Below, piece by piece: positions 1-11,393 of a stretch of 11,393 nt of DNA. The stretch is from contig JAAZDZ010000106.1 in NCBI GenBank assembly GCA_012512545.1, positions 1 to 11,393 on the forward strand. Reading direction: 5' to 3'. The notes under the pieces are model-generated. The model searched no databases, was not told the origin of the DNA, and saw only the letters and a program-made list of their open reading frames with translations. The DNA comes from Alcaligenaceae bacterium. Lineage in GTDB: Bacteria; Pseudomonadota; Gammaproteobacteria; Burkholderiales; Burkholderiaceae_B. Within the stretch, counting starts at the first letter, position 1. The number at the start of each line of letters is the position of its first letter. Both the position numbers and the translations under genes were made by a program.

Positions 1-1965
1 ACCCGCCTGCTCACGCAGGCCAGCGCTGCTGAAGAAGCCGTTTATCGTGCGCTGTTGGAAGTGCCATTCACGCAGCGTGGTGTGCATAAACCCGGCCAGC
101 AAACGGAACTGCAGCGTGTGGGTTTGCAGAAGACGCTGTTCTCCAGCCCGGCGGCGGCACTGGAATCTACGAACAAAAGAATCTCATCACTCAAGCAAAA
201 ACCGGACATCACCCTAGACGAGCAGGCCGAAGTGGATAGCCTGCAGGAGTTGCTCGATGCCGTGAGGGTGCTGACCGATGAGCCGGATGCAGCCAGCTTC
301 AGCAAATACCAGCGTCTGGTCTCCTACCTGCGCTCAGACGAATTTGCATGGAACCCTTCTGCTGCCACCGACCGACTGGTGATTTTCTCAGAGCGCATCG
401 AGACCCTGCATTGGCTGCGTGAACAGCTCAGCAAGGATTTGCGCCTGAAGTCGAATCAAATCGAGGTGTTGCACGGCCAGATGGCCGACACAGAGCAACA
501 GGAACGGGTGGAGCGTTTCGGGCGACTGAACGACCCGGTGCGGGTCCTGCTGTGTTCCGATGTCGCCAGCGAAGGCCTGAACCTGCATTACTTCTGCCAT
601 CGACTGGTGCATTTTGACTTGCCATGGTCGCTGATGATTTTCCAGCAGCGCAATGGCCGCGTGGACCGCTACGGTCAGGAACATCAGCCCAATATCATTT
701 ACCTGTTCACCGATACAGTGAATGAGAAAATCAAGGGTGACCTGCGTATCCTGGAAATCCTGGAAAAGAAGGATGAGCAGGCTTTGCTCAACCTGGGTGA
801 CCCTTCAGCTTTCCTGAATGTCTTTGACCCCGACAAGGAAGAAGAAAAAGTCAGCGAATTCATGGCCAGTGGCCTCACGCCAGAAGAAGTCGAGGCTGAC
901 ATGGACGCCACGGCCAGTGCTGATGACAGCAATGAAGGTGACTGGCTCATGCAGCTGTTTGGGGGACAGGCAGACCAGGAGGTTTCAGGGGCGGAAGAGG
1001 ATTTATCACTACCCACCAGCAGCCTGGACGCCATCGTCGAGCCCGCTTCTTTGTTCGACACTGATTATCAATACACCAAGACCGCGCTGACACTGTTGAA
1101 CCAGGGCCAGGTTTTGTGCCAGTGGGCGGCTGAGGATGACCAGCAGATTATTGCGCTGACGGCTCCGCCGGATTTGCAGGAGCGCTTGCGGCAGCTGCCG
1201 CGTGAAGTCCAGGCTGCCAACGACCATTATTCCTTGTGCGCGGACCCCGCACGCATGGCCGAAGCCATAGAAACCGCAAGGCAGGCCCGTGCAGAAGAAG
1301 AATCCTGGCCCCAGCTGCATTATCTATGGCCACAGCATCCCATCATGGAATGGCTGGGCGAACGTGTGTTGACGCACTTTGGCCGTCACAAAGCCCCGTT
1401 GCTGCAAAGCGCGGCGTTGCATGCCGATGAGCAGGCTTTCATTTTGATGAGCCTGGTGCCCAACCGTAAGGGTCAGCCGCTGCTGGTGGAATGGCAGGTG
1501 GCGCTACGTCGCGGCCAGGGCAATTTTTCGCTGGAACCCTTTGATGCGTTTGCACAGCGTATCGGCCTGAAGGCCGGGGGTCTGCCTAACCGTGGGGTAA
1601 CGGCGGGGTTGGATGCAACCATCCAGGAAATGCAAAACGCCCTGCCCGGGGCAGTGCAGGCCATGCATGCCTATATGGTGGGCAAGCAGGCTGCGTTTTC
1701 TGCCAGCCTTGAAGAGCGGCTTTCAGGGACTTTGCAGGAGCTGCAACGCTTGCAGGAACGCCAGATGGAGCAGCTGGAAATCAGTTTGTCTAAACAGCTG
1801 GAAACGGTGAAACGTGGCCGCTTTGAACAGCGCAGTCAGCAAATCAACCGTATCTTCGACGATTACCGTCAGTGGGTGCATGACACCCTGTCCACCGAGC
1901 CGCAACCCTGGATTCAAGTCCTGGCTGCTGTGTGTCACCCTCAACCTTCTGTCGCTGGAGCCTGA
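1..1965 (+). CDS. SNF2-family helicase, C-terminal part (DrmD-like), 5' end outside the window
   Basis: The frame is open from base 1 and gives 654 residues before the TGA at 1963-1965. The real start lies upstream, and the in-frame TTG at 55 has no role. What is visible is the second RecA domain of an SF2/SNF2 ATPase. Motif IV is LVIFSER near nt 379, followed by motif V SDVASEGLNL (nt 556-585) and the canonical SNF2 motif VI QQRNGRVDRYGQ (nt 643-678) with its arginine finger. The Walker A and DEAH motifs must lie left of the window. Before motif IV, LQKTLFSSPAAALES resembles the linker of DISARM-type SNF2 helicases. After motif VI come an acidic stretch (nt 838-950) and a long tail ending in a Leu/Gln/Glu-rich probable coiled coil (about nt 1708-1848). 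SNF2 proteins translocate on double-stranded DNA using ATP. The methyltransferase gene starts 2 bases after the stop, so the two are probably co-translated. DrmD of class 1 DISARM is my best family guess. SNF2 helicase is secure, the exact subfamily is not. Confidence 0.9.
   Translation, partial: TRLLTQASAAEEAVYRALLEVPFTQRGVHKPGQQTELQRVGLQKTLFSSPAAALESTNKRISSLKQKPDITLDEQAEVDSLQELLDAVRVLTDEPDAASFSKYQRLVSYLRSDEFAWNPSAATDRLVIFSERIETLHWLREQLSKDLRLKSNQIEVLHGQMADTEQQERVERFGRLNDPVRVLLCSDVASEGLNLHYFCHRLVHFDLPWSLMIFQQRNGRVDRYGQEHQPNIIYLFTDTVNEKIKGDLRILEILEKKDEQALLNLGDPSAFLNVFDPDKEEEKVSEFMASGLTPEEVEADMDATASADDSNEGDWLMQLFGGQADQEVSGAEEDLSLPTSSLDAIVEPASLFDTDYQYTKTALTLLNQGQVLCQWAAEDDQQIIALTAPPDLQERLRQLPREVQAANDHYSLCADPARMAEAIETARQARAEEESWPQLHYLWPQHPIMEWLGERVLTHFGRHKAPLLQSAALHADEQAFILMSLVPNRKGQPLLVEWQVALRRGQGNFSLEPFDAFAQRIGLKAGGLPNRGVTAGLDATIQEMQNALPGAVQAMHAYMVGKQAAFSASLEERLSGTLQELQRLQERQMEQLEISLSKQLETVKRGRFEQRSQQINRIFDDYRQWVHDTLSTEPQPWIQVLAAVCHPQPSVAGA
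1957..1960 (+). promoter_or_regulatory. Ribosome binding site of the methyltransferase gene
   Basis: GGAG lies 7 bases before the ATG at 1968, inside the last codons of the helicase gene. It favours this ATG over the in-frame GTG at 1932. The stop TGA (1963-1965) and the ATG are separated only by CC, a layout typical of translational coupling. Confidence 0.6.
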
Positions 1966-1967
1966 CC

Positions 1968-4900
1968 ATGCCTGTATTGGAAGCGGTTCAGACCTTCACC
2001 GGTATTACCAACGAAAACGAGTTCTACAGTCATCACTACCTGGCCGAAGTCTTCAAAGGCGATATCAAGGCCCGCCTGGATGCCTGGGATGCCCTGGAGA
2101 CGGAGCATGCGGGTGAAGAAAACCAGCGTGCGCCTTACAAGCGCCTGCAGGCGTGGGCGCAGAAGTGGTTCAGCCTGCATAGCCAGATTCAACACGCCGG
2201 TGACGACAAGCAACGCTGGAAGCTGTTCACCGAGATACAGACTGGCCTGCTGGAAGCCCTGGGCTATCCCAAGCCAACTGCGCTGCCGCATCGGCACGAA
2301 TTAGTGGCCGGTTTGCCCATTCCCTTGTGGCTGTTGCAATTGCCTGGCCTGGCGGTAATTCCCGCCTATCGCCCCGGTGCAGAAGACGATGACCTGCTTG
2401 ACCATACCTTGCCCGGCTTTCTGTACGGAGAAGAGCCTGTTCCCAACGGCCTAAAGGGGGAAACCTGGGCCGATATGCTGGCCGATGCAGTGTTTGCAGC
2501 AGAGACCGCCCCGCGCTATGTGGTGCTGGCAGGACTGGATGAATGGCTGCTGATTGACCGCTACAAATGGCCTAACAACCGGGCTCTGCGCTTTGATTGG
2601 GCAGAAATCCTGGACCGCAAGGATGCAGACACCCTCAAGGCTTGCGCCGTGCTGCTGCACAAGGAAAGCCTGGCGCCGGGTGAAGGCGACAGCCTGCTGC
2701 AGTCCTTGGACGAAAACGCCCACAAGCACGCGTTTGGGGTGAGTGAAGACCTGAAATATGCCCTGCGGGAAGCCATTGAGCTCTTGGGCAATGAAGCTGC
2801 TCGGCAGCTCCGTCAGCAGGCCGCTGACAGCAAAAAAGGGTTCTTCAGTGGTAAAGACCAGCTGGACCCTGACGAGCTCAGCATGGAATGCCTGCGCATG
2901 GTGTACCGGCTGCTGTTCATGTTTTACATCGAGGCCAGGCCGGAACTTTCGTATGTGCCCATCGCAAAAAGCGAGGTCTACCAGAAAGGCTATAGCCTTG
3001 AAAGCCTGCGCGACCTGGAGATGCAGCCGCTCACCACACCCAGCGCGCGCGAAGGCGCGTATTTCGATACCACGCTGCGTCGGTTGTTCCAGTTGGTGGC
3101 GGAGGGCTGCGGCCTGAATGAGCCCAGGCAAGGCGAACTGGGGGCGACGATTACCGGGGCCAAAGATGTCTTTGCCCTGGCGCCGCTTGACAGCCGCCTG
3201 TTTGATGACGACAGCATGCCCTTGCTCAATCGGGTGCGCTTCCCCAACCACGTATGGCAACGCATTATCCGCCTGATGTCGCTGACACGCGGCCAGGGGC
3301 GCGGTAAACGTAGCGGGCGGGTCAGTTATCAGTTGCTGTCCATCAACCAGTTAGGCGCGGTATACGAAGCGCTGCTGAGCTACAGGGGTTTCTTTGCTTC
3401 TGAAGACCTGTATGAAGTCCAGCCAGCGCCCAAGAAAGCCAAGGCAGCGGCTCCCTCCGCCGATGATGACGATAGCGACGAGCCGACGGATGACGATGAC
3501 AGCCCCCGCAAGAGCTCCGGGGCCGCCGCCGCGTCGGGAGACCTGCTGGAAAACGCCTGGTTTGTACCGGCTGACCGTCTGCATGAATACGACGAAGCCG
3601 AGCGGGTTTACGACAAAAACGACGCCGGCCACCTGGTGCTGCGCAAGCATGAACGAGGCAAATTTGTTTACCGGCTGGCCGGGCGTGACCGCCAGAAAAG
3701 CGCCAGCTATTACACGCCACAGGTGTTGACCCAGTGCCTGGTCAAGTACGCCCTGAAGGAACTGTTGGAAGGCGGCAGGGTCAAGAAAGCCGACGACATT
3801 CTGACCCTCACGGTGTGCGAACCTGCCATGGGCAGTGCAGCCTTCTTGAATGAGGCCGTGAACCAACTTTCGGAAGCCTACCTGGAACGCAAGCAGGCCG
3901 AGCTGGGGCGCCGCATTCCCCATGAGGACTACCCGCAGGAACTGCAGAAAGTCCGTATGTACATGGCTGACCGCAATGTCTACGGGGTTGACTTGAACCC
4001 TGTGGCGGTAGAGCTGGCAGAAGTTTCCCTGTGGTTGAATGCCATTTATGGGGAAACCGATGAAGAGGGTCGCCCTCAGCCTGCTCGAGTGCCATGGTTT
4101 GGTTACCAACTGTTCGCGGGGAACAGCCTGATAGGCGCTCGCCATCAGGTATACCGAGCCTCTAGCCTGTTGAAAGGCGCCAAGCCTGCCTGGCATGCCG
4201 AACCGCCGCGCCCGGTCACGGCCGAACAGCCCCGTGCCGCAGATGAAATCTGGCATTTCTTACTGCCCGACCCGGGCATGGCCAATTACACCGACAAGAC
4301 CGCCAAAGCCTTGTACCCGGAGGCTTTTGAGCGATTGAAAGCCTGGCGCAAGGCTTTCACCGCACCGCTTTCAGAGTACGAAATCGCTCGCCTTCAGCAG
4401 CTCAGTAACCGAGTGCAGGAGCTCTGGCAGGAACATACGCGCGCATTGGCGCGTGACAGGCAGCGCACGGAAGATAATCTGACTGTCTGGCCACACCCTG
4501 AAAGTGATGCCGGCGACACCGGCACCCGTATCAGCCGCGCACAAAAGGAAGTCATCCGTCGTGAAGGCCTGTTGAATGAAGATGGCGACCTGGCCACGCC
4601 TTTCCGCCGCCTGAAGCTGGTGATGGATTACTGGTGCGCCCTGTGGTTCTGGCCGTTGGCGGCAGTGGAGCAGATACCCAGCCGTGAAGAATGGTGGATG
4701 GAAATCGGTGCCATTCTGGAAGGCAATGTGGTGGACATGACCCCGCAACTAGGCCTGGGCTTGGAGCCTGCCGCAGGCCCGATTCAGAGGGATATCGCAG
4801 AACCCACGGGCTTTGAAGCGGCGCAGCCCAGCCTGGAAGGGTTTGCGACACAGCCGAGCCTGCGAGCAGCCACTGAAGACAGGAGCCGCTTGCACGATAC

Positions 4901-7013
4901 CCTGGGCCAGTTGCGTATCGGCAAGCTCAGGCACAACTTCCCGCGCATCGCTCAGGTGGAAGCCGTTGCTGATGCCCGCCGCTTTATGCATTGGGAACTG
5001 TTCTTTGCCGACATCCTGCTGCAGCGCGGGGGCTTCGACCTGATTTTGGGGAACCCCCCGTGGCTGAAGGTGGAGTGGAACGAATCCGGCATATTGGGGG
5101 AATACAACCCAATATTCGCAGTGAGGAAAATTAGCGCAAGTGACCTGGCGAAATTGCGCAGGGAAGCATTTGCAGAATTTTCCGGTTTGCAGGAGGCTTG
5201 GGCAGAAGAACTGCAGGAAGCGGAGGGGATGCAGAGCTTCTTGAATGCGGTGCAGAACTATCCTTTACTCAAAGGTGTCCAGTCAAATCTCTATAAAAAT
5301 TTTGTAGAGCGTAGTTGGCAATTATCTAATAGCTGTGGATGTATTGGATTAATCCACGAGGAAAGCTTATATGACGACGCTGCAGCTTCTAATATTCGTG
5401 AAAATCTATACCGACGGTTAAGGTATCATTTTCAGTTTGTTAATGAAAAAAAACTATTTAAAGATGTAGATAATCATAAGAAATTCAGTATAAACATCAC
5501 TTCTTCATTTGCAGGGGAACCTGCGTTTATAAATATTTCGAACTTATATCATCCATCAACTGTCGATAAATGTTTTGACTCTGATAATGCGTGCCTGGTG
5601 CCGTCCATCAAAGATTCCAAAGGGGATTGGAACGTTGAGGGGCATCCGTCTCGAGCGGTGCGTATCGACAGAGATAGGTTGGAATTGTTTTTTTCTCTTT
5701 TCGACAATGGGATTGGCTCAACATTGGGCGCCCGATTACCGGCTGTTCATTCAGAAGAGTTCGTATCAGTCCTTTCCAAGTTCAATGGCTTAGATTCATC
5801 GTTTGAGAAGCTTGACGGGAAATACGGTTTTTTCGAGATGTACCACGAGACTCGAGCGAATGCTTCTGGCGTCATTGCGCCGAACATCCATACTCCAAAA
5901 CATCTCTCCGATGTAGTGCTTTCGGGTTCTCATATAGGAATAGGAAATGCCTTTCAACAGACTTCCCATTCGGCGGGAGGGTCGAAAATGGCATTCGACA
6001 GAATTGACCTTGAGTTGATTGGTGCAAATTACTTACCCCGAACCAAGTTCTGTCTGAAAGACCACTCCATCAATGGATTTAAGAAGTCAGTTAACTGGAA
6101 CGCAGCACTTGCTTCCACCAAGTTATATAGATTTGCTACAAAGTACCAAATTAGCCAGTCTATGGAGAGGGGGTATGTCGGATGTGTTATCCCCCCTGGT
6201 GTTTCTCATCTTCAAACCATAATTTCAGTCGCGTTTAAAGATGATATGGACTTGGTGAATTTTTCTTGTAGAAACATTACATTATTGTACGCATTTTTTG
6301 CAAGAACGACTGGTTTTCCTACATTCCGCAGCCTAGCGAAGGGGCTCCGATGGAAGGGAGTGGTGAATCCTCGTCTCATCTCTCGTTTTTTGTTGTTGGT
6401 CTGCGTCACTGATGCATACGCCGATTTGTGGCAAAAATACAGGCAGTTTGTTGAATCATCGGACTCATGGGCAATTCGTGACAGAAAACTTACTTCTTCG
6501 AAATTTGAAGCGTTTACACACGAGTGGGAATGGAGTTCTCCTGCTCGTAAAGATTTTGACCGTCGACAACTGCTTGTGGAGATGGATGTGCTTGTTGCCA
6601 TGGAAATGGAGGTCACGTTGGAGGAGTTTTTGTCTATCTATCGTGTACAGTTTCCGGTTATGCACGGGTTTGAACGCGACACTTGGTACGACATCAACGG
6701 TCGAATCATTTTCACAAATAACAAAGGCCTGACGGGTGTAGGTCTGCCCCGCAAAGGCGGCCGCAATACCCCTCGGGTACGCATTCAAACGCCTGATGGA
6801 AACCCACGAGAAGGCAACTTCGGCTGGGAAGACCTTTATAAAGACAGCGAATGGTTGGTACCCGACGGCACAGTCGTGACCGAAGAGGTAATGGATGACA
6901 CCCTGCCCGGCGGCCCCCGCAAAATTGAGCGCCGCTATGTCGCCCCATTTGCCCGTGCCGACCGCGAAGAAGATTACCGCATAGCCTGGGCGTATTTTTC
7001 CGCAAACCGATAG
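1968..7013 (+). CDS. Giant Eco57I/PglX/DrmMI-like adenine-N6 DNA methyltransferase
   Basis: 1681 aa from the ATG at 1968, chosen for its GGAG site; the in-frame GTG at 1932 would overlap the helicase gene. It should transfer a methyl group from S-adenosylmethionine to adenine N6 in DNA. Motifs: SASYYTP (578-584, motif X region), EPAMGSAAF (618-626, motif I, SAM binding), YGVDLNP (672-678, motif II) and the catalytic NPPW (1029-1032, motif IV, adenine type). The order X-I-IV is that of gamma-class and Eco57I-like enzymes. The ~350 residues between motifs II and IV are a helical insertion holding a Trp-rich stretch near 885-905. The N-terminal ~490 residues contain GLDEWLLIDRYK and LRFDWAEIL, like the N-terminal domain of type IIG enzymes, but I see no convincing PD-(D/E)xK nuclease signature. 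An Asp-rich linker (499-512) precedes the methylase domain. Residues ~1103-1585 are the likely target recognition domain and are unusually AT-rich. The last ~95 residues are GC-rich again. DrmMI or PglX are the nearest named relatives; methyltransferase is nearly certain, the target site is unknown. Confidence 0.93.
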   Translation: MPVLEAVQTFTGITNENEFYSHHYLAEVFKGDIKARLDAWDALETEHAGEENQRAPYKRLQAWAQKWFSLHSQIQHAGDDKQRWKLFTEIQTGLLEALGYPKPTALPHRHELVAGLPIPLWLLQLPGLAVIPAYRPGAEDDDLLDHTLPGFLYGEEPVPNGLKGETWADMLADAVFAAETAPRYVVLAGLDEWLLIDRYKWPNNRALRFDWAEILDRKDADTLKACAVLLHKESLAPGEGDSLLQSLDENAHKHAFGVSEDLKYALREAIELLGNEAARQLRQQAADSKKGFFSGKDQLDPDELSMECLRMVYRLLFMFYIEARPELSYVPIAKSEVYQKGYSLESLRDLEMQPLTTPSAREGAYFDTTLRRLFQLVAEGCGLNEPRQGELGATITGAKDVFALAPLDSRLFDDDSMPLLNRVRFPNHVWQRIIRLMSLTRGQGRGKRSGRVSYQLLSINQLGAVYEALLSYRGFFASEDLYEVQPAPKKAKAAAPSADDDDSDEPTDDDDSPRKSSGAAAASGDLLENAWFVPADRLHEYDEAERVYDKNDAGHLVLRKHERGKFVYRLAGRDRQKSASYYTPQVLTQCLVKYALKELLEGGRVKKADDILTLTVCEPAMGSAAFLNEAVNQLSEAYLERKQAELGRRIPHEDYPQELQKVRMYMADRNVYGVDLNPVAVELAEVSLWLNAIYGETDEEGRPQPARVPWFGYQLFAGNSLIGARHQVYRASSLLKGAKPAWHAEPPRPVTAEQPRAADEIWHFLLPDPGMANYTDKTAKALYPEAFERLKAWRKAFTAPLSEYEIARLQQLSNRVQELWQEHTRALARDRQRTEDNLTVWPHPESDAGDTGTRISRAQKEVIRREGLLNEDGDLATPFRRLKLVMDYWCALWFWPLAAVEQIPSREEWWMEIGAILEGNVVDMTPQLGLGLEPAAGPIQRDIAEPTGFEAAQPSLEGFATQPSLRAATEDRSRLHDTLGQLRIGKLRHNFPRIAQVEAVADARRFMHWELFFADILLQRGGFDLILGNPPWLKVEWNESGILGEYNPIFAVRKISASDLAKLRREAFAEFSGLQEAWAEELQEAEGMQSFLNAVQNYPLLKGVQSNLYKNFVERSWQLSNSCGCIGLIHEESLYDDAAASNIRENLYRRLRYHFQFVNEKKLFKDVDNHKKFSINITSSFAGEPAFINISNLYHPSTVDKCFDSDNACLVPSIKDSKGDWNVEGHPSRAVRIDRDRLELFFSLFDNGIGSTLGARLPAVHSEEFVSVLSKFNGLDSSFEKLDGKYGFFEMYHETRANASGVIAPNIHTPKHLSDVVLSGSHIGIGNAFQQTSHSAGGSKMAFDRIDLELIGANYLPRTKFCLKDHSINGFKKSVNWNAALASTKLYRFATKYQISQSMERGYVGCVIPPGVSHLQTIISVAFKDDMDLVNFSCRNITLLYAFFARTTGFPTFRSLAKGLRWKGVVNPRLISRFLLLVCVTDAYADLWQKYRQFVESSDSWAIRDRKLTSSKFEAFTHEWEWSSPARKDFDRRQLLVEMDVLVAMEMEVTLEEFLSIYRVQFPVMHGFERDTWYDINGRIIFTNNKGLTGVGLPRKGGRNTPRVRIQTPDGNPREGNFGWEDLYKDSEWLVPDGTVVTEEVMDDTLPGGPRKIERRYVAPFARADREEDYRIAWAYFSANR
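3462..3503 (+). other. Asp-rich low-complexity linker inside the methyltransferase
   Basis: The codons read DDDDSDEPTDDDDS (residues 499-512): two DDDDS blocks, preceded by a Lys/Ala/Pro stretch and followed by Lys, Ser and an Ala run. It sits between the N-terminal domain and the methylase core and is probably a flexible tether. Only the low complexity is seen; the tether role is inference. Confidence 0.7.
5275..6720 (+). other. AT-rich target recognition segment of the methyltransferase, probably exchanged
   Basis: Five 60-base lines counted by hand inside this segment (from 5281, 5341, 5401, 5521 and 6241) have 32, 42, 25, 30 and 28% GC. The lines starting at 4981 and 6721, just outside it, have 58 and 65%. 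The reading frame continues unbroken through both edges. Codon use changes with it (TTA, AAT, AAA and ATT become common). It begins about 75 codons after the NPPW motif, where Eco57I/PglX-like enzymes carry the target recognition domain. Edges are approximate. The domain call is by position and composition, not by a recognised motif. Confidence 0.6.
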
Positions 7014-7014
7014 C

Positions 7015-7021
7015 AAGAGGG
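7015..7021 (+). promoter_or_regulatory. Ribosome binding site of the 240 aa gene
   Basis: AAGAGGG lies between the TAG of the methyltransferase (7011-7013) and the ATG at 7025. The spacing is short (3-4 bases), but this is the only purine-rich site available, and it supports the ATG at 7025 over the in-frame ATG at 7058. Confidence 0.5.
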
Positions 7022-7024
7022 TTT

Positions 7025-7747
7025 ATGAGTAAAGATAACTTTTTTGACCCCTTTTGGATGGAGCAGGTAAAGCTTCCGGTAAAACGTGTAGCTGGGCAGT
7101 GGGAGTTTCTTTACGGGGGTGAGATACCGGTCAAAGATGGTGCTTTCGGTGAGCTGACCATTAGCGTCAACCAACTGACGGATAAAGCCTTTCGGGAGCG
7201 CGTTACCGCAACGCTGGTTGTGCCTATTTTGGAAGAAGGAACGCCGTTGTTGGTGGCGTTAAGTGACCTGTCTTGCACACGCGGTGGTTCGTGGCCCGAA
7301 AACGATATCTTCAATTTTCCTATTGGAACCACACGGCTAGAAAGAGTTGTTTTGGGACCAATGCAGCAGAAATCGCGTCAAGGAGAATTGCTTGGCGAAA
7401 AAGGTGGATTGTGGTTGAAGCTTAAGGGCTTAGAAAAAACCGAGTTGTTGGGCAGTTCAATCTTGATGCCCGAAGGTTTTGAGCCAGCATCTGCGAAAAG
7501 TCTTAACCATGCCTTTACCCTGCTGTCTGAGAAATACGAAACACATCGGATATCCCATACTGGAAATGTGTATACGAGGGTTTATTACCAAGAGCGCAAT
7601 GGAAATTGGTATCCCTTAGACGATTTGCGTAATGGTGTAAGAGTACAAGGTGAAAAGATGCTGCTTGAGGATGTTTGGGCCGAAATCGAGCGGCGTCTCG
7701 GAGGGCGACCGTGGGTTCAGCCTCAGAAAAAAAAACGTACCTCGTAA
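7025..7747 (+). CDS. Uncharacterised 240 aa protein of the defence operon
   Basis: I do not recognise a family. The ATG at 7025 follows AAGAGGG, 11 bases after the methyltransferase stop; TAA is at 7745-7747. The protein has no signal peptide, no membrane segment and no nuclease, ATPase or methylase motif that I can see. The N-terminus is aromatic (FFDPFW), then strand-like stretches alternate (for example GQWEFLYGG, ATLVVPIL, TRLERVVLG), suggesting a mostly beta fold. The second half looks mixed alpha/beta, and the C-terminus is basic (QPQKKKRTS), which could contact DNA. A single Cys argues against a zinc site. Three hand-counted 60-base lines give 40, 50 and 40% GC, lower than the helicase genes, so it may have a separate history. 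Its place between the methyltransferase and the big helicase, on the same strand with almost no gaps, suggests an accessory subunit or specificity factor. That role is inference from position only. Confidence 0.85.
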   Translation: MSKDNFFDPFWMEQVKLPVKRVAGQWEFLYGGEIPVKDGAFGELTISVNQLTDKAFRERVTATLVVPILEEGTPLLVALSDLSCTRGGSWPENDIFNFPIGTTRLERVVLGPMQQKSRQGELLGEKGGLWLKLKGLEKTELLGSSILMPEGFEPASAKSLNHAFTLLSEKYETHRISHTGNVYTRVYYQERNGNWYPLDDLRNGVRVQGEKMLLEDVWAEIERRLGGRPWVQPQKKKRTS

Positions 7748-7769
7748 TGTAATTTGAAAAACCGTTGCC

Positions 7770-10700
7770 ATGCTGCCATCGCTCCTGACCAAAGACATCA
7801 AAACCGGCCTTAAGCAGTTTCTGACTGCCGGGTTTGAGCCGTCCGACGCCTTCATGCAAGGGTTGATGAGCCGGTTTGTGGAAGATGAATCAGCATGGCT
7901 GAAAGGCCCGTATGTGCAGGTCGGGCTGCCCTTTGTGCAAGGGCAAAAGGGCAAACAGTTCTTCTCCACATTTGAAACCCAGTTCCCCGGCTATAGCCAT
8001 CAGGAACAGGCCTGGACGCGCTTATCGTCAGAGCATCTGGCATCCAGCACACTCGTTGCCACCGGTACCGGTAGCGGCAAGACGGAGTGTTTTCTCTACC
8101 CCGTGCTGGACTACTGTGCCCGTACCCGCGCCGCGGGTGAGGCCGGTATCAAGGCCTTGGTTATCTACCCCATGAATGCGCTCGCCAGTGACCAGGCGCG
8201 ACGCATTGCTCAGTTGGTGGCCACGGTACCAGCCTTTCGCCAGTTACGTGTTGGCCTGTATGTGGGCGGGCGTGTGGGTGAGCCGGGCAGCGGCATGGTC
8301 ATGACGCCCGAAAGCGTGATTACCGACCGCGATACCTTGCGCAAGCAGCCGCCGGATATTCTGCTTACCAACTACAAGATGTTGGACTACCTGATGCTTC
8401 GGCCTCAGGACAGGCAACTGTGGGCAGCGAACCAGCCCGAGACACTGCGTTACGTGGTGGTGGACGAGCTGCATACGTTTGATGGCGCACAGGGAACCGA
8501 CCTGGCGCTGCTGCTACGCCGCCTGCGTGCGCGGCTGCAAACTCCGGAGGGGCACTTGATATGTGCGGGCACTTCGGCCACCTTGGGCGATGCCTCTGAC
8601 ACCACCGGTCTGCGCACCTATGCCAGCCAGGTGTTCGGGGTTCCGTTCGACGCTGATTCGGTAGTGACGGAGAACCGCCAGAGCGTCGGCGCCTTCCTGG
8701 AAGATGCCACCGTTGATTTCATGTTTCCCTTTCGCCCGGAAACGGCCTCCCAGCTGAACACCACCCTGTACGAATCACAGGAAGCGGCGGTCGAAGCGCT
8801 GTTCAGGCTCTTCTTTCCGAATGAGCCGGTTCCGGCGGATGTGAAAGACCCCGCATGGCGCCGTGAACTCGGTCAAAACCTCAAGCGGCATCAGCTGTTT
8901 GTGAATCTGATCAAGCATTTGAAAGGCGGGGTCGTCGATGTTTCAGAACTGAAAGCGGCGTTTGTGCGTAACTTGCCGCGTGCGACGGATGAGCAGGTAG
9001 GCTGGGTGGTGGATGCCTTGTTAGTACTCGTGGCCTGGGCGCGCCGCGAAGGTAACCAGCCTCTGGTGACCTTGCGCATGCAGTTGTGGGTCAGGGAACT
9101 GCGCCGTATGGTGGGCAAGCTGAGCTCCCAGGCAGAAGAAGTGGTGCTGCGTAGCGAGCGCGACCTGCCCGCCGAACGTGATGGTGTCTACCTGCCCATG
9201 GTGCAATGCAGCCAGTGTCGTACCACCGGCTGGATATCCCGGCTGGTGCAGGGCACCAACAAGCTCTCTACCAAGCTCGACGAAATCTACAACACCTGGT
9301 TCTCCGCGCGGCCGGAAGCGGCCCGCTTCTACGCCGCCAAAAGCGTTCGTCATTCCCATGTGGAAGGCATTAACCAGCACGTGTGTGTGGCTTGCGGCAA
9401 CCTGCAACAGGGTGAAGGTGGTTGCCTGGCCTGTGGCGGGCAGGAACTGCTGGAAATTTTTCGGGTCACAGCGCAGCGTTCACAGACGTCCGGCATGGCG
9501 CAGTTTACGCGGCACGACAATACCTGCCCGGCCTGCGGCGAACGTAATGAGCTGCTGTTGCTTGGCGCACGTACCGCAACCCTGGGTTCTCAGGTCGTAG
9601 AGGCCACCTGGGCCAGTGTGTTCAATGATGATAAAAAACTCATCGCCTTTTCCGACTCGGTGCAGGATGCCGCCCACCGCGCGGGTTTCTTTGGTGCCCG
9701 TACTTACCTGAACAATGTGCGTATGGCGCTGGCCCAGGTTATGGATGAGGTCGTGGTGGGGCCTATGCCCTGGTCCGATTTCCTGGAAAAGGTCAAAGCA
9801 CAGTTCAGGCAGCCAGGCTCGGTGCTGCACATGGATGACGAACGGCTGGTGACGGAATTCATTGGCCCCAATATGACCTGGCAACGCGACTGGGCACACG
9901 AGTTGATGCAGCATCATCGCCTGCCGGCGGATAGCAAGCTGCCGGGCAGAGTCAGAAAACGCTTGTTATGGCAGGCGGTCAGTGAGATGACCTACCTGAG
10001 CAAGCGGGGCCGCACCCTGGAACGTATTGGCAAGGCGACATTGTCCGTGCCTTGGGAACACCTGATGGCCGTGGCAGAGCGGCTGACACCTTATCTGCGT
10101 GAGCATTTTGGCGCCCATGGCCTGGAGCAGGCTACCGTGACCCAGTGGCTTTGGGGCACGCTTACACATATGCGCCGCCGTGGCGGGGTCATGCACCCTG
10201 AACTGACTCAATATGCCGCAGATGGCAATGTGTTTGCACTGGGTAGAACAGGCGGGCGGGGTGAATGGATGCCGTCCATGGGCGATTACGCGCCCAAGCC
10301 GGTGTTCTTGACACTGGGGCGGCAACCAGGGTTTGACAAGCTCACGCATCGCAGCCGCCCCACCTGGTATGAGCGCTGGGCGGATGCAGTATTGGGCCAG
10401 CAGACTCTGCTGCCGGTGGGCATGACGGCCGAGATGTATGAGGCGGCCTTTGAGGCCTTGCAGCAGGACGGGGTCCTTATCCGTACTCAGCATCATCTGG
10501 GCGATACCCTGGCCTTGAATCCTGATGCCCTGGTACTGAATACGAATATATGCTTTGTTGCTACATCAGGAAGTCAACGCCGGTTGGCGGTTCCTCAGGC
10601 AGAAGCGGAGCATTTCCTGGGCATGCCTTGCTTGGATGCGGTTGAGTCGACATATGAAGTGCTGCTGACGGACACTACCAGTTGGTGGGCCACGCGTTAC

Positions 10701-11393
10701 AGTCAGGGCAATCTGCGTCGTGTGATAGCCGCTGAACATACCGGCTTGCTAGAGCGTACCGACCGTGAGGCACTGGAGCAGCGTTTCAAGAGCAAGACCC
10801 CCAAGCCCTGGTTTGAGAATCTGCTTTCTGCCACCCCCACGTTGGAAATGGGTGTGGACATCGGCGACCTTTCATCTGTTCTGCTGTGCTCAGTGCCACC
10901 GGCACAGGCCAGCTTTCTGCAGCGCATAGGCCGTGCCGGTCGGGTGGACGGCAACGCAGTGGCAACCACGCTGGCGGACGGTAACAGCCCGCATGACCTG
11001 TATTTCTTCTCGGAGACCCACGAGATGATAGCGGGGGAAGTCAGCCCGCCGGGCATCTTTCTGCAGGCTGCTGAGGTATTGCGGCGCCAGCTGTTTGCCT
11101 TTTGCATGGATGACTGGGTGGCGGGCCTGACCAATATGTCGGCTTTGCCGCAGAAAACCTCACCAGCCTTGGATGCGGTGGAGCAGGCGCGCACAGACCG
11201 CTTCCCCTACATTTTTTGCGACCACATGCTGCAGCACGAGCAGCGGCTGTTTGATGCCTTTATGACGCTATTGGGTAAGGATGCCACCGAACAAGTGCGG
11301 GAGCGCCTGTGGAACACCATGCAGGGCCAGGGTGAGGAAGACAGCCTGCGCGTGCGCCTGACAAAAGTGTTGAGCGACCTGGTGACAGACGGT
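7770..11393 (+). CDS. Large DEAD/DEAH-like SF2 helicase with zinc-binding insertion (YprA/DrmA/DruE type), 3' end outside the window
   Basis: 1208 residues are visible and the frame is still open at the right edge. An in-frame TGA at 7755 limits the start, and ATG 7770 is the first start after it, 22 bases beyond the previous stop, without a clear Shine-Dalgarno site. RecA1: ATGTGSGKT (97-105, Walker A), YPMNAL (133-138, motif Ia), DELH (232-235, motif II), SAT (269-271, motif III). Four CxxC pairs follow at 480/483, 539/542, 552/555 and 586/589, enough for two zinc sites. RecA2 opens with FSDS (627-630), as in COG1205/YprA-like helicases, and carries GVDIGD (1028-1033, motif V) and QRIGRAGR (1051-1058, motif VI). 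About 400 residues separate motifs IV and V, far more than in a plain RecA2 domain, with helical and possibly winged-helix content. All ATPase residues look intact, so an active ATP-driven translocase is expected. A DUF1998 domain is often found at the C-terminus of, or next to, such helicases; here that part is out of view. The closest named relatives are DrmA and DruE; I cannot choose between them. Confidence 0.92.
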   Translation, partial: MLPSLLTKDIKTGLKQFLTAGFEPSDAFMQGLMSRFVEDESAWLKGPYVQVGLPFVQGQKGKQFFSTFETQFPGYSHQEQAWTRLSSEHLASSTLVATGTGSGKTECFLYPVLDYCARTRAAGEAGIKALVIYPMNALASDQARRIAQLVATVPAFRQLRVGLYVGGRVGEPGSGMVMTPESVITDRDTLRKQPPDILLTNYKMLDYLMLRPQDRQLWAANQPETLRYVVVDELHTFDGAQGTDLALLLRRLRARLQTPEGHLICAGTSATLGDASDTTGLRTYASQVFGVPFDADSVVTENRQSVGAFLEDATVDFMFPFRPETASQLNTTLYESQEAAVEALFRLFFPNEPVPADVKDPAWRRELGQNLKRHQLFVNLIKHLKGGVVDVSELKAAFVRNLPRATDEQVGWVVDALLVLVAWARREGNQPLVTLRMQLWVRELRRMVGKLSSQAEEVVLRSERDLPAERDGVYLPMVQCSQCRTTGWISRLVQGTNKLSTKLDEIYNTWFSARPEAARFYAAKSVRHSHVEGINQHVCVACGNLQQGEGGCLACGGQELLEIFRVTAQRSQTSGMAQFTRHDNTCPACGERNELLLLGARTATLGSQVVEATWASVFNDDKKLIAFSDSVQDAAHRAGFFGARTYLNNVRMALAQVMDEVVVGPMPWSDFLEKVKAQFRQPGSVLHMDDERLVTEFIGPNMTWQRDWAHELMQHHRLPADSKLPGRVRKRLLWQAVSEMTYLSKRGRTLERIGKATLSVPWEHLMAVAERLTPYLREHFGAHGLEQATVTQWLWGTLTHMRRRGGVMHPELTQYAADGNVFALGRTGGRGEWMPSMGDYAPKPVFLTLGRQPGFDKLTHRSRPTWYERWADAVLGQQTLLPVGMTAEMYEAAFEALQQDGVLIRTQHHLGDTLALNPDALVLNTNICFVATSGSQRRLAVPQAEAEHFLGMPCLDAVESTYEVLLTDTTSWWATRYSQGNLRRVIAAEHTGLLERTDREALEQRFKSKTPKPWFENLLSATPTLEMGVDIGDLSSVLLCSVPPAQASFLQRIGRAGRVDGNAVATTLADGNSPHDLYFFSETHEMIAGEVSPPGIFLQAAEVLRRQLFAFCMDDWVAGLTNMSALPQKTSPALDAVEQARTDRFPYIFCDHMLQHEQRLFDAFMTLLGKDATEQVRERLWNTMQGQGEEDSLRVRLTKVLSDLVTDG
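9207..9536 (+). other. Cluster of four CxxC pairs (zinc ribbon region) in the helicase
   Basis: Cys pairs occur at residues 480/483, 539/542, 552/555 and 586/589 of the helicase, in the contexts CSQC, CVAC, CLAC and CPAC. The last three are followed by Gly, as in zinc knuckles. They lie between RecA1 and motif IV of RecA2. Two zinc-ribbon sites are the simplest reading; the pairing of the knuckles is inference. Confidence 0.75.

Follow-up and report, generated by a model that had tools for sequence, protein, structure and literature searches.

The DNA analysed here (the window, 11,393 nucleotides from an Alcaligenaceae bacterium) carries four genes, which we assign to an anti-phage operon of the ARMADA Type II kind. 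All four lie on the + strand and are separated by 2, 11 and 22 bases, so that the coordinates confirm what the original prediction had stated. The window spans all of contig C561 of a draft genome (2.65 Mb, 580 contigs, 81.7% complete), and both of its ends are therefore contig ends. The first gene (1..1965, 5' end open) encodes the C-terminal 654 amino acids of ArmA, a BrxHII/RapA/SNF2-like helicase. It is followed by the gene for ArmB, a PglX-like N6-adenine DNA methyltransferase of 1681 amino acids (1968..7013, from the ATG at 1968; the mechanically called open reading frame, or ORF, begins upstream at a GTG at 1932), with the NPPW catalytic motif at 5052..5063. An extra gene for a 240-amino-acid protein, here called P240, occupies positions 7025..7747. 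The last gene (7770..11393, 3' end cut) encodes the first 1208 amino acids of ArmC, a YprA/DruE-type helicase with a Walker A motif GSGKT (8070..8084), a motif II DELH (8463..8474) and a region of four CxxC motifs in the RecA1-RecA2 interval (9207..9536), the site of the zinc-binding beta-barrel reported for ARMADA and Druantia helicases (PMC12458937). The motifs searched for in the methyltransferase and in the helicase are intact.

ARMADA was described only in 2025, in a preprint by Bell et al. (PMC12458937). The sections consulted define Type II by RapA/BrxHII-like ArmA, PglX-like ArmB, YprA-like ArmC with a fused OB-CON-DUF1998 part and Vsr-type nuclease, and GajB-like ArmD, and report anti-phage activity in E. 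coli NCTC 12900. The window keeps the order and strand of the helicase, methyltransferase and YprA-family helicase genes, with P240 interposed. ArmA aligns at 74% identity with residues 335-979 of a full-length homologue (locus L008), has a Helicase_C Pfam match, and contains the SEG and QRxGRxDR motifs; its Walker motifs fall upstream of the contig start, and the motif check covers the C-terminal part. ArmB aligns with its E. coli counterpart along 100% of the query at 42.9% identity and matches the Eco57I family in Pfam. Its NPPW motif (residue 1029) and GxG-type glycine (residue 622) align to residues mutated in E. coli ARMADA. ArmC is 37.6% identical to E. coli ArmC over 1207 residues, and 71-74% identical to the ArmC proteins of L003, L004, L005 and L008. 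In the E. coli copy that we opened (L002), the published mutated residues stand at the published numbers, and those of ArmB and ArmC have counterparts in the window, so that residues essential in E. coli are kept wherever they are visible. On this sequence evidence, it is close to certain that the window holds most of an ARMADA Type II operon, with armA, armB and armC on C561 and armD on a second contig, C230. The original prediction had left the choice between a DISARM variant and a separate, related system, and the gene set decides for the latter.

It had also anticipated further components beyond the cut ends, and these are found on C230. When intact relatives were used as queries against the window's genome, C230 was found to carry an ArmC tail corresponding to residues 1572-2138 of the L004 homologue (65% identity) and, directly after it, most of ArmD (C230:2-1813; residues 2-594, 74% identical to L004 ArmD). 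The L004 ArmD has UvrD/GajB matches, preceded by about 250 residues, the place at which ARMADA Type II would have a fused RelE-like domain; these have no Pfam RelE match at E <= 0.05. A search for a DUF1998 protein (DrmB), which the original prediction proposed, gave a single MZB/DUF1998 match in the genome as assembled, in the frame of the ArmC tail on C230; in the intact ArmC of L004, the MZB domain (1560-1649) is part of the one chain. The ArmC tail also has, by eye, a Vsr-like motif in common with E. coli ArmC (PDFVIWP...AVFCDG..H), and Pfam reports no Vsr domain in L004 ArmC. The genome search recovered neither the roughly 360 ArmC residues that separate C561 from C230 nor the first 334 or so residues of ArmA, and the two contigs are not physically joined in this assembly. 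Because the ArmC tail and ArmD are present on C230, this bacterium most probably has an ARMADA II that is complete, with the same four genes in the same order, MZB/DUF1998 in the ArmC chain and an ArmD of the UvrD/GajB type.

The window differs from ARMADA Type II as published in having P240 between armB and armC; the sections consulted in PMC12458937 mention neither P240 nor a cargo slot at this place. No gene intervenes there in the ARMADA II loci opened from E. coli, Klebsiella, Microvirga and others, and the description of the 240-amino-acid gene as an addition was correct. In view of the empty E. coli junction, all three junctions were scored in loci found via ArmB or ArmC rather than P240, leaving out the genomes of the window and of L004. 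Twenty-nine loci were opened (13 plasmid records, and 4 order, 4 class and 8 family genomes), and 26 were scored, after L026/L054 had been dropped for changed gene order and L043 and L088 for having no ArmC on the contig. The plasmid records were 13 of 30 with ArmB, the remaining 17 being from E. coli (14), Klebsiella (1) and Streptomyces (2). The armB-armC distance is at most 206 nt in 10 of the 26 loci and 651-10,782 nt in the other 16, whereas armA and armB are at most 84 nt apart in 26/26 and armC and armD at most 123 nt apart in 18/18 measurable cases (Fisher P = 1.0e-6 and 1.5e-5 for armB-armC against the other two junctions, uncorrected for kinship; 7 of the 16 loaded loci belong to a single family and 2 to a single Haematobacter strain). 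The plasmids Haematobacter pOT1-7 and Martelella pMM259 share 99.6% identity along 6969 bases of armC-armD and 89.6% in armA-armB, and only pOT1-7 has a gene at armB-armC. Since identity drops across it, the junction is also a recombination boundary. In E. coli the junction region was matched in 518 of 5426 genomes, with no insertion among the 30 matches listed.

Intact P240 is present in none of the 26 scored loci; L085 retains an N-terminal remnant just before armC. A role for P240 as a fixed fifth ARMADA subunit was therefore rejected, as loci found via ArmB carry other genes or none in its place. It is very likely that armB-armC is a preferred cargo site of ARMADA II, and P240 is, with similar confidence, cargo rather than core. 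At the level of sequence, the gene set, the order, the intact motifs and the exchangeable extra genes at armB-armC, unlike the other two junctions, can be regarded as established.

The cargo is diverse. Slot ORFs were called mechanically and chosen ones were scanned with Pfam, which gave matches above the cut-off in 9 of the 16 loaded slots: a protein kinase (L028), AlbA_2 with HATPase in a Schlafen-like arrangement (L030), HNH, Gp49 and HipA (L031), a MoxR-type ATPase (L050), NOV_C and KAP (L080), SIR2 (L081), NOV_C (L083), KAP and AbiEii (L084), and NERD with AAA_11/12 (L085). Sub-threshold matches suggest M78/ImmA (L024), PIN (L082) and ParA (L045). The L087 slot has a BLAST match to the L030 gene only, L029 and L044 have nothing clear by Pfam, and the L048 slot gene was outside the Pfam scan. 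The Haematobacter slot gene was considered as a divergent P240 and rejected, being M78/ImmA-like (Pfam 20.8 against a cut-off of 22). In the unscored L043, an FRG-domain gene follows armB. Two slots with P240 hold additional genes, namely GmrSD, a DrmD-like helicase and a gene without assignment in L003, and genes for 337 and 1142 amino acids in L004.

Several observations on these loci stand on their own. The 1142-amino-acid protein between armB and P240 (L004:6471-9899) has no Pfam or PADLOC match. The L029 slot (9398-10603) appears by eye to contain a toxin-antitoxin pair with a SecB-like protein, and its scanned ORFs have no Pfam match. A two-gene unit of a DrmD-like SNF2 helicase (1045-1068 amino acids) and a protein of 543-615 amino acids recurs in the armB-armC slot (L003:10856-15881, L080:12183-16948) and, in one ARMADA I-like operon, downstream of P240 (L009:10642-15642); it may be a separate small defence module. 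In one genome (G1481, L085/L086), a single contig has two ArmB matches (5533576-5535072 and 5612898-5616785) with some 78 kb between them, and their query ranges overlap (residues 451-493), a pattern that looks like the integration of a large element within armB. In L084, opposite-strand ORFs of 203 amino acids (450-1061 and 18510-19121) interrupt armA and armC and resemble copies of one small insertion element.

P240 has 304 homologues at E <= 1e-3, and 588 by profile at E <= 0.01, and no match in Pfam (E <= 0.1), NCBIfam, PADLOC or PHROGs. In an alignment of 82 sequences, which includes distant BREX- and restriction-associated members, S159, N161, H162, H174, R175, S177, G180, N181, V182 and R202 are invariant; most of them fall in a hallmark motif, S-L-N-H-A ... 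E-x-H-R-I-S-x-T-G-N-V-Y (residues 159-183, 7499..7573). No match was found in plasmids or phages, and no relative was confirmed among viral contigs. P240 is present in 2 of 399 genomes of the order sample (the window's own, and a 31-residue end piece at a contig edge) and in 1 of 398 of the phylum sample (the window's own). Twelve contexts were compared, the window and 11 loci from a scan of the genome collection. P240 occupies the ARMADA II slot in five (the window, L003, L004, L005 and L008) and is part of operons in two more, L009 and L010, called ARMADA I-like by gene order and a DruE-like YprA helicase rather than by phylogeny (the SNF2 protein of L010 matches the DpdE model best). Distant members follow BrxL in a BREX locus (L012) and lie between a Schlafen-like gene and HsdR (L013). 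In L007, the opposite strand has an HsdR gene at a distance of about 1.5 kb, and in L006 and L011 P240 has no recognised defence neighbour or is a fragment. The L008 copy (9992-10883), from a metagenome-assembled genome, is split over two frames about 160 bases apart, which may be a broken gene or an assembly error. In L012, an endonuclease/exonuclease/phosphatase-like gene (by eye, 2403-3203) follows BrxL and the distant P240.

A clue to the function of P240 comes from structure comparison. The predicted fold of residues ~61-209 appears to resemble the RAMA domains of CcrM (6pbd) and MPND, and residues ~62-209 (7208..7651) are tentatively annotated as RAMA-like. In the model, S159, N161/H162, N181 and R202 would be placed near the CcrM DNA-phosphate contacts S315, H317, N330 and R350, as extrapolated from the alignment ends. 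P240 differs from these domains in being a stand-alone protein of 240 amino acids with an unmatched N-terminal part and no significant sequence similarity, and from CcrM in having no tryptophan at the W332 position. RAMA sequences diverge strongly, according to the text consulted in PMC9963953. Support for RAMA by hhalign was weak, a PDB sequence search gave only three chance-level polymerase matches, the CcrM tail as a query had no match in phages, a RAMA family search of 21 relatives returned one sub-threshold match, and nothing in BFVD was matched by Foldseek at E <= 1e-3. With two hidden Markov models of P240, 110 CcrM tails average 0.05 and 1.44 bits, means that are reached by 3.5% of 1695 and 1.0% of 1336 reported shuffles (2000 made); the top shuffles (4.7 and 5.1 bits) exceed the best CcrM tails (1.3 and 2.8 bits).

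Taken together, we favour, with a probability of roughly 0.7, an ARMADA II operon with P240 as an accessory at armB-armC that is likely to bind DNA. By analogy with E. coli, the system would act by a non-abortive block of phage DNA, requiring the methyltransferase ArmB and three motors, ArmA and ArmC of the SF2 type and ArmD of the UvrD type. The marking or reading of self DNA is probably the task of ArmB, and cleavage that of ArmC with its Vsr-like tail. P240 would be translated together with the operon, and DNA binding is its most likely role because its modelled C-terminal part appears similar to RAMA, the domain with which the adenine methyltransferase CcrM holds the non-target strand. It would read or grip DNA beside ArmB, and so widen or tune the range of recognition. 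Since the slot holds many different add-on genes in related systems, the data suggest that ARMADA has a second role, as a dock for exchangeable immune parts. A bolder version appears possible, but on balance unlikely: armB-armC would be a dedicated dock of ARMADA II at which recombination swaps modules while the four-gene engine stays fixed, and P240 would found a family of stand-alone RAMA-like DNA readers, passed among ARMADA I and II, BREX and Type I restriction loci, that let a methylation-based system also recognise phage DNA that is modified or protected in some other way.

Alternatively, P240 may be a self-contained, single-gene defence or guard module, comparable to GmrSD- or PrrC-type modules, that uses ARMADA only for expression and mobility and has no part in its biochemistry. 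Other slot occupants (SIR2, AbiEii, HipA, KAP, NERD-AAA, the kinase) do resemble free-standing modules, P240 occurs without ARMADA in L006 and L007, and there is an independent precedent in TgvAB, embedded in a Type I restriction-modification operon according to the text consulted in PMC11411939. We nevertheless consider this possibility doubtful. P240 has no recognisable catalytic domain and no constant partner, and it is downstream of an ARMADA-type methyltransferase gene in 7 of the 12 loci, with two distant members adjoining BREX or Type I restriction genes. It is less probable still, and in our view improbable, that P240 regulates or protects ArmB, as an inhibitor, a stabiliser or a specificity subunit found only in a sub-branch of ARMADA. 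The P240 gene immediately follows that of ArmB in the window and L005 and that of the methyltransferase in the ARMADA I-like L010, and comes two ORFs later in L009, but other genes separate it from ArmB in L003 and L004. Moreover, in the window's own ArmB branch, sampled through loci found via ArmB, L080-L084 carry other genes and L085 only the P240 remnant; ArmB thus does not need P240.

Druantia III (DruE) is similar in that the window's ArmC is a DruE-like YprA helicase with CxxC motifs; DruE tails are of the PLD type, whereas ARMADA tails are of the Vsr type, according to the sections consulted in PMC12458937. The window does not fit Druantia: the alignment between E. coli DruE3 and the window's ArmC spans 241 residues only (32% identity) and the window genes are ARMADA-type, a judgement that does not extend to partner genes elsewhere in the genome, which were not searched. 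Finally, the window is almost certainly not a variant of DISARM Class 1 into which a gene was inserted: the DrmD model matches the first gene and the DrmMI model the second, the order is reminiscent of drmD-drmMI-drmA, and both systems have an SNF2-type helicase, a PglX-like methyltransferase and a YprA-family helicase, but DrmD scores 151 bits against a cut-off of 610, the methyltransferase is matched far better by Type IIG models than by DrmMI (809 vs 163 bits) and the last helicase by DruE than by DrmA (288 vs 61 bits, in line with the DruE-like architecture first proposed for it), no separate DrmB-type gene was found in the 81.7% complete genome, whose one MZB/DUF1998 domain is in the ArmC tail, by a search that did not extend to DrmC, and the expected next gene is ArmD rather than DrmB or DrmC. 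In the suggested check with defence-system profiles (PADLOC, NCBIfam 2023 and 2026), the models for DISARM, Druantia, Dpd and Type IIG were matched only in part. Elsewhere in the genome, a second SNF2-type helicase (open frame of 974 amino acids, G000:C123:16100-17857) possibly belongs to a further defence locus.

Extra defence genes inside methyltransferase-based operons have been reported before: BREX loci harbour auxiliary or backup effectors (Rakesh and Krishnan 2026, PMC12839542), TgvAB is a further nested case, and the kinds overlap (GmrSD, HNH, Schlafen with histidine-kinase ATPase). Those reports, as far as their consulted text goes, concern BREX, BREX-related and Type I restriction-modification loci; a word search of PMC12839542 for ARMADA and DISARM was negative for both, and no match identifies P240 as a nuclease. 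No published ARMADA P240 or armB-armC cargo slot was found in the literature searched, which covered few subscription papers and not the ARMADA supplement. On this basis, the locus represents a known system in a new variant arrangement, with a new protein family of inferred function. P240 stands for a family that is widespread but has no name, and that is linked to defence based on methyltransferases. Should P240 be a RAMA-like reader, it would provide a concrete and testable example of a swappable DNA-recognition accessory for such systems. If armB-armC is a cargo dock, this would account for the unknown genes inside an otherwise strict operon, and the contents of the junction would offer a direct route to the discovery of defence genes.

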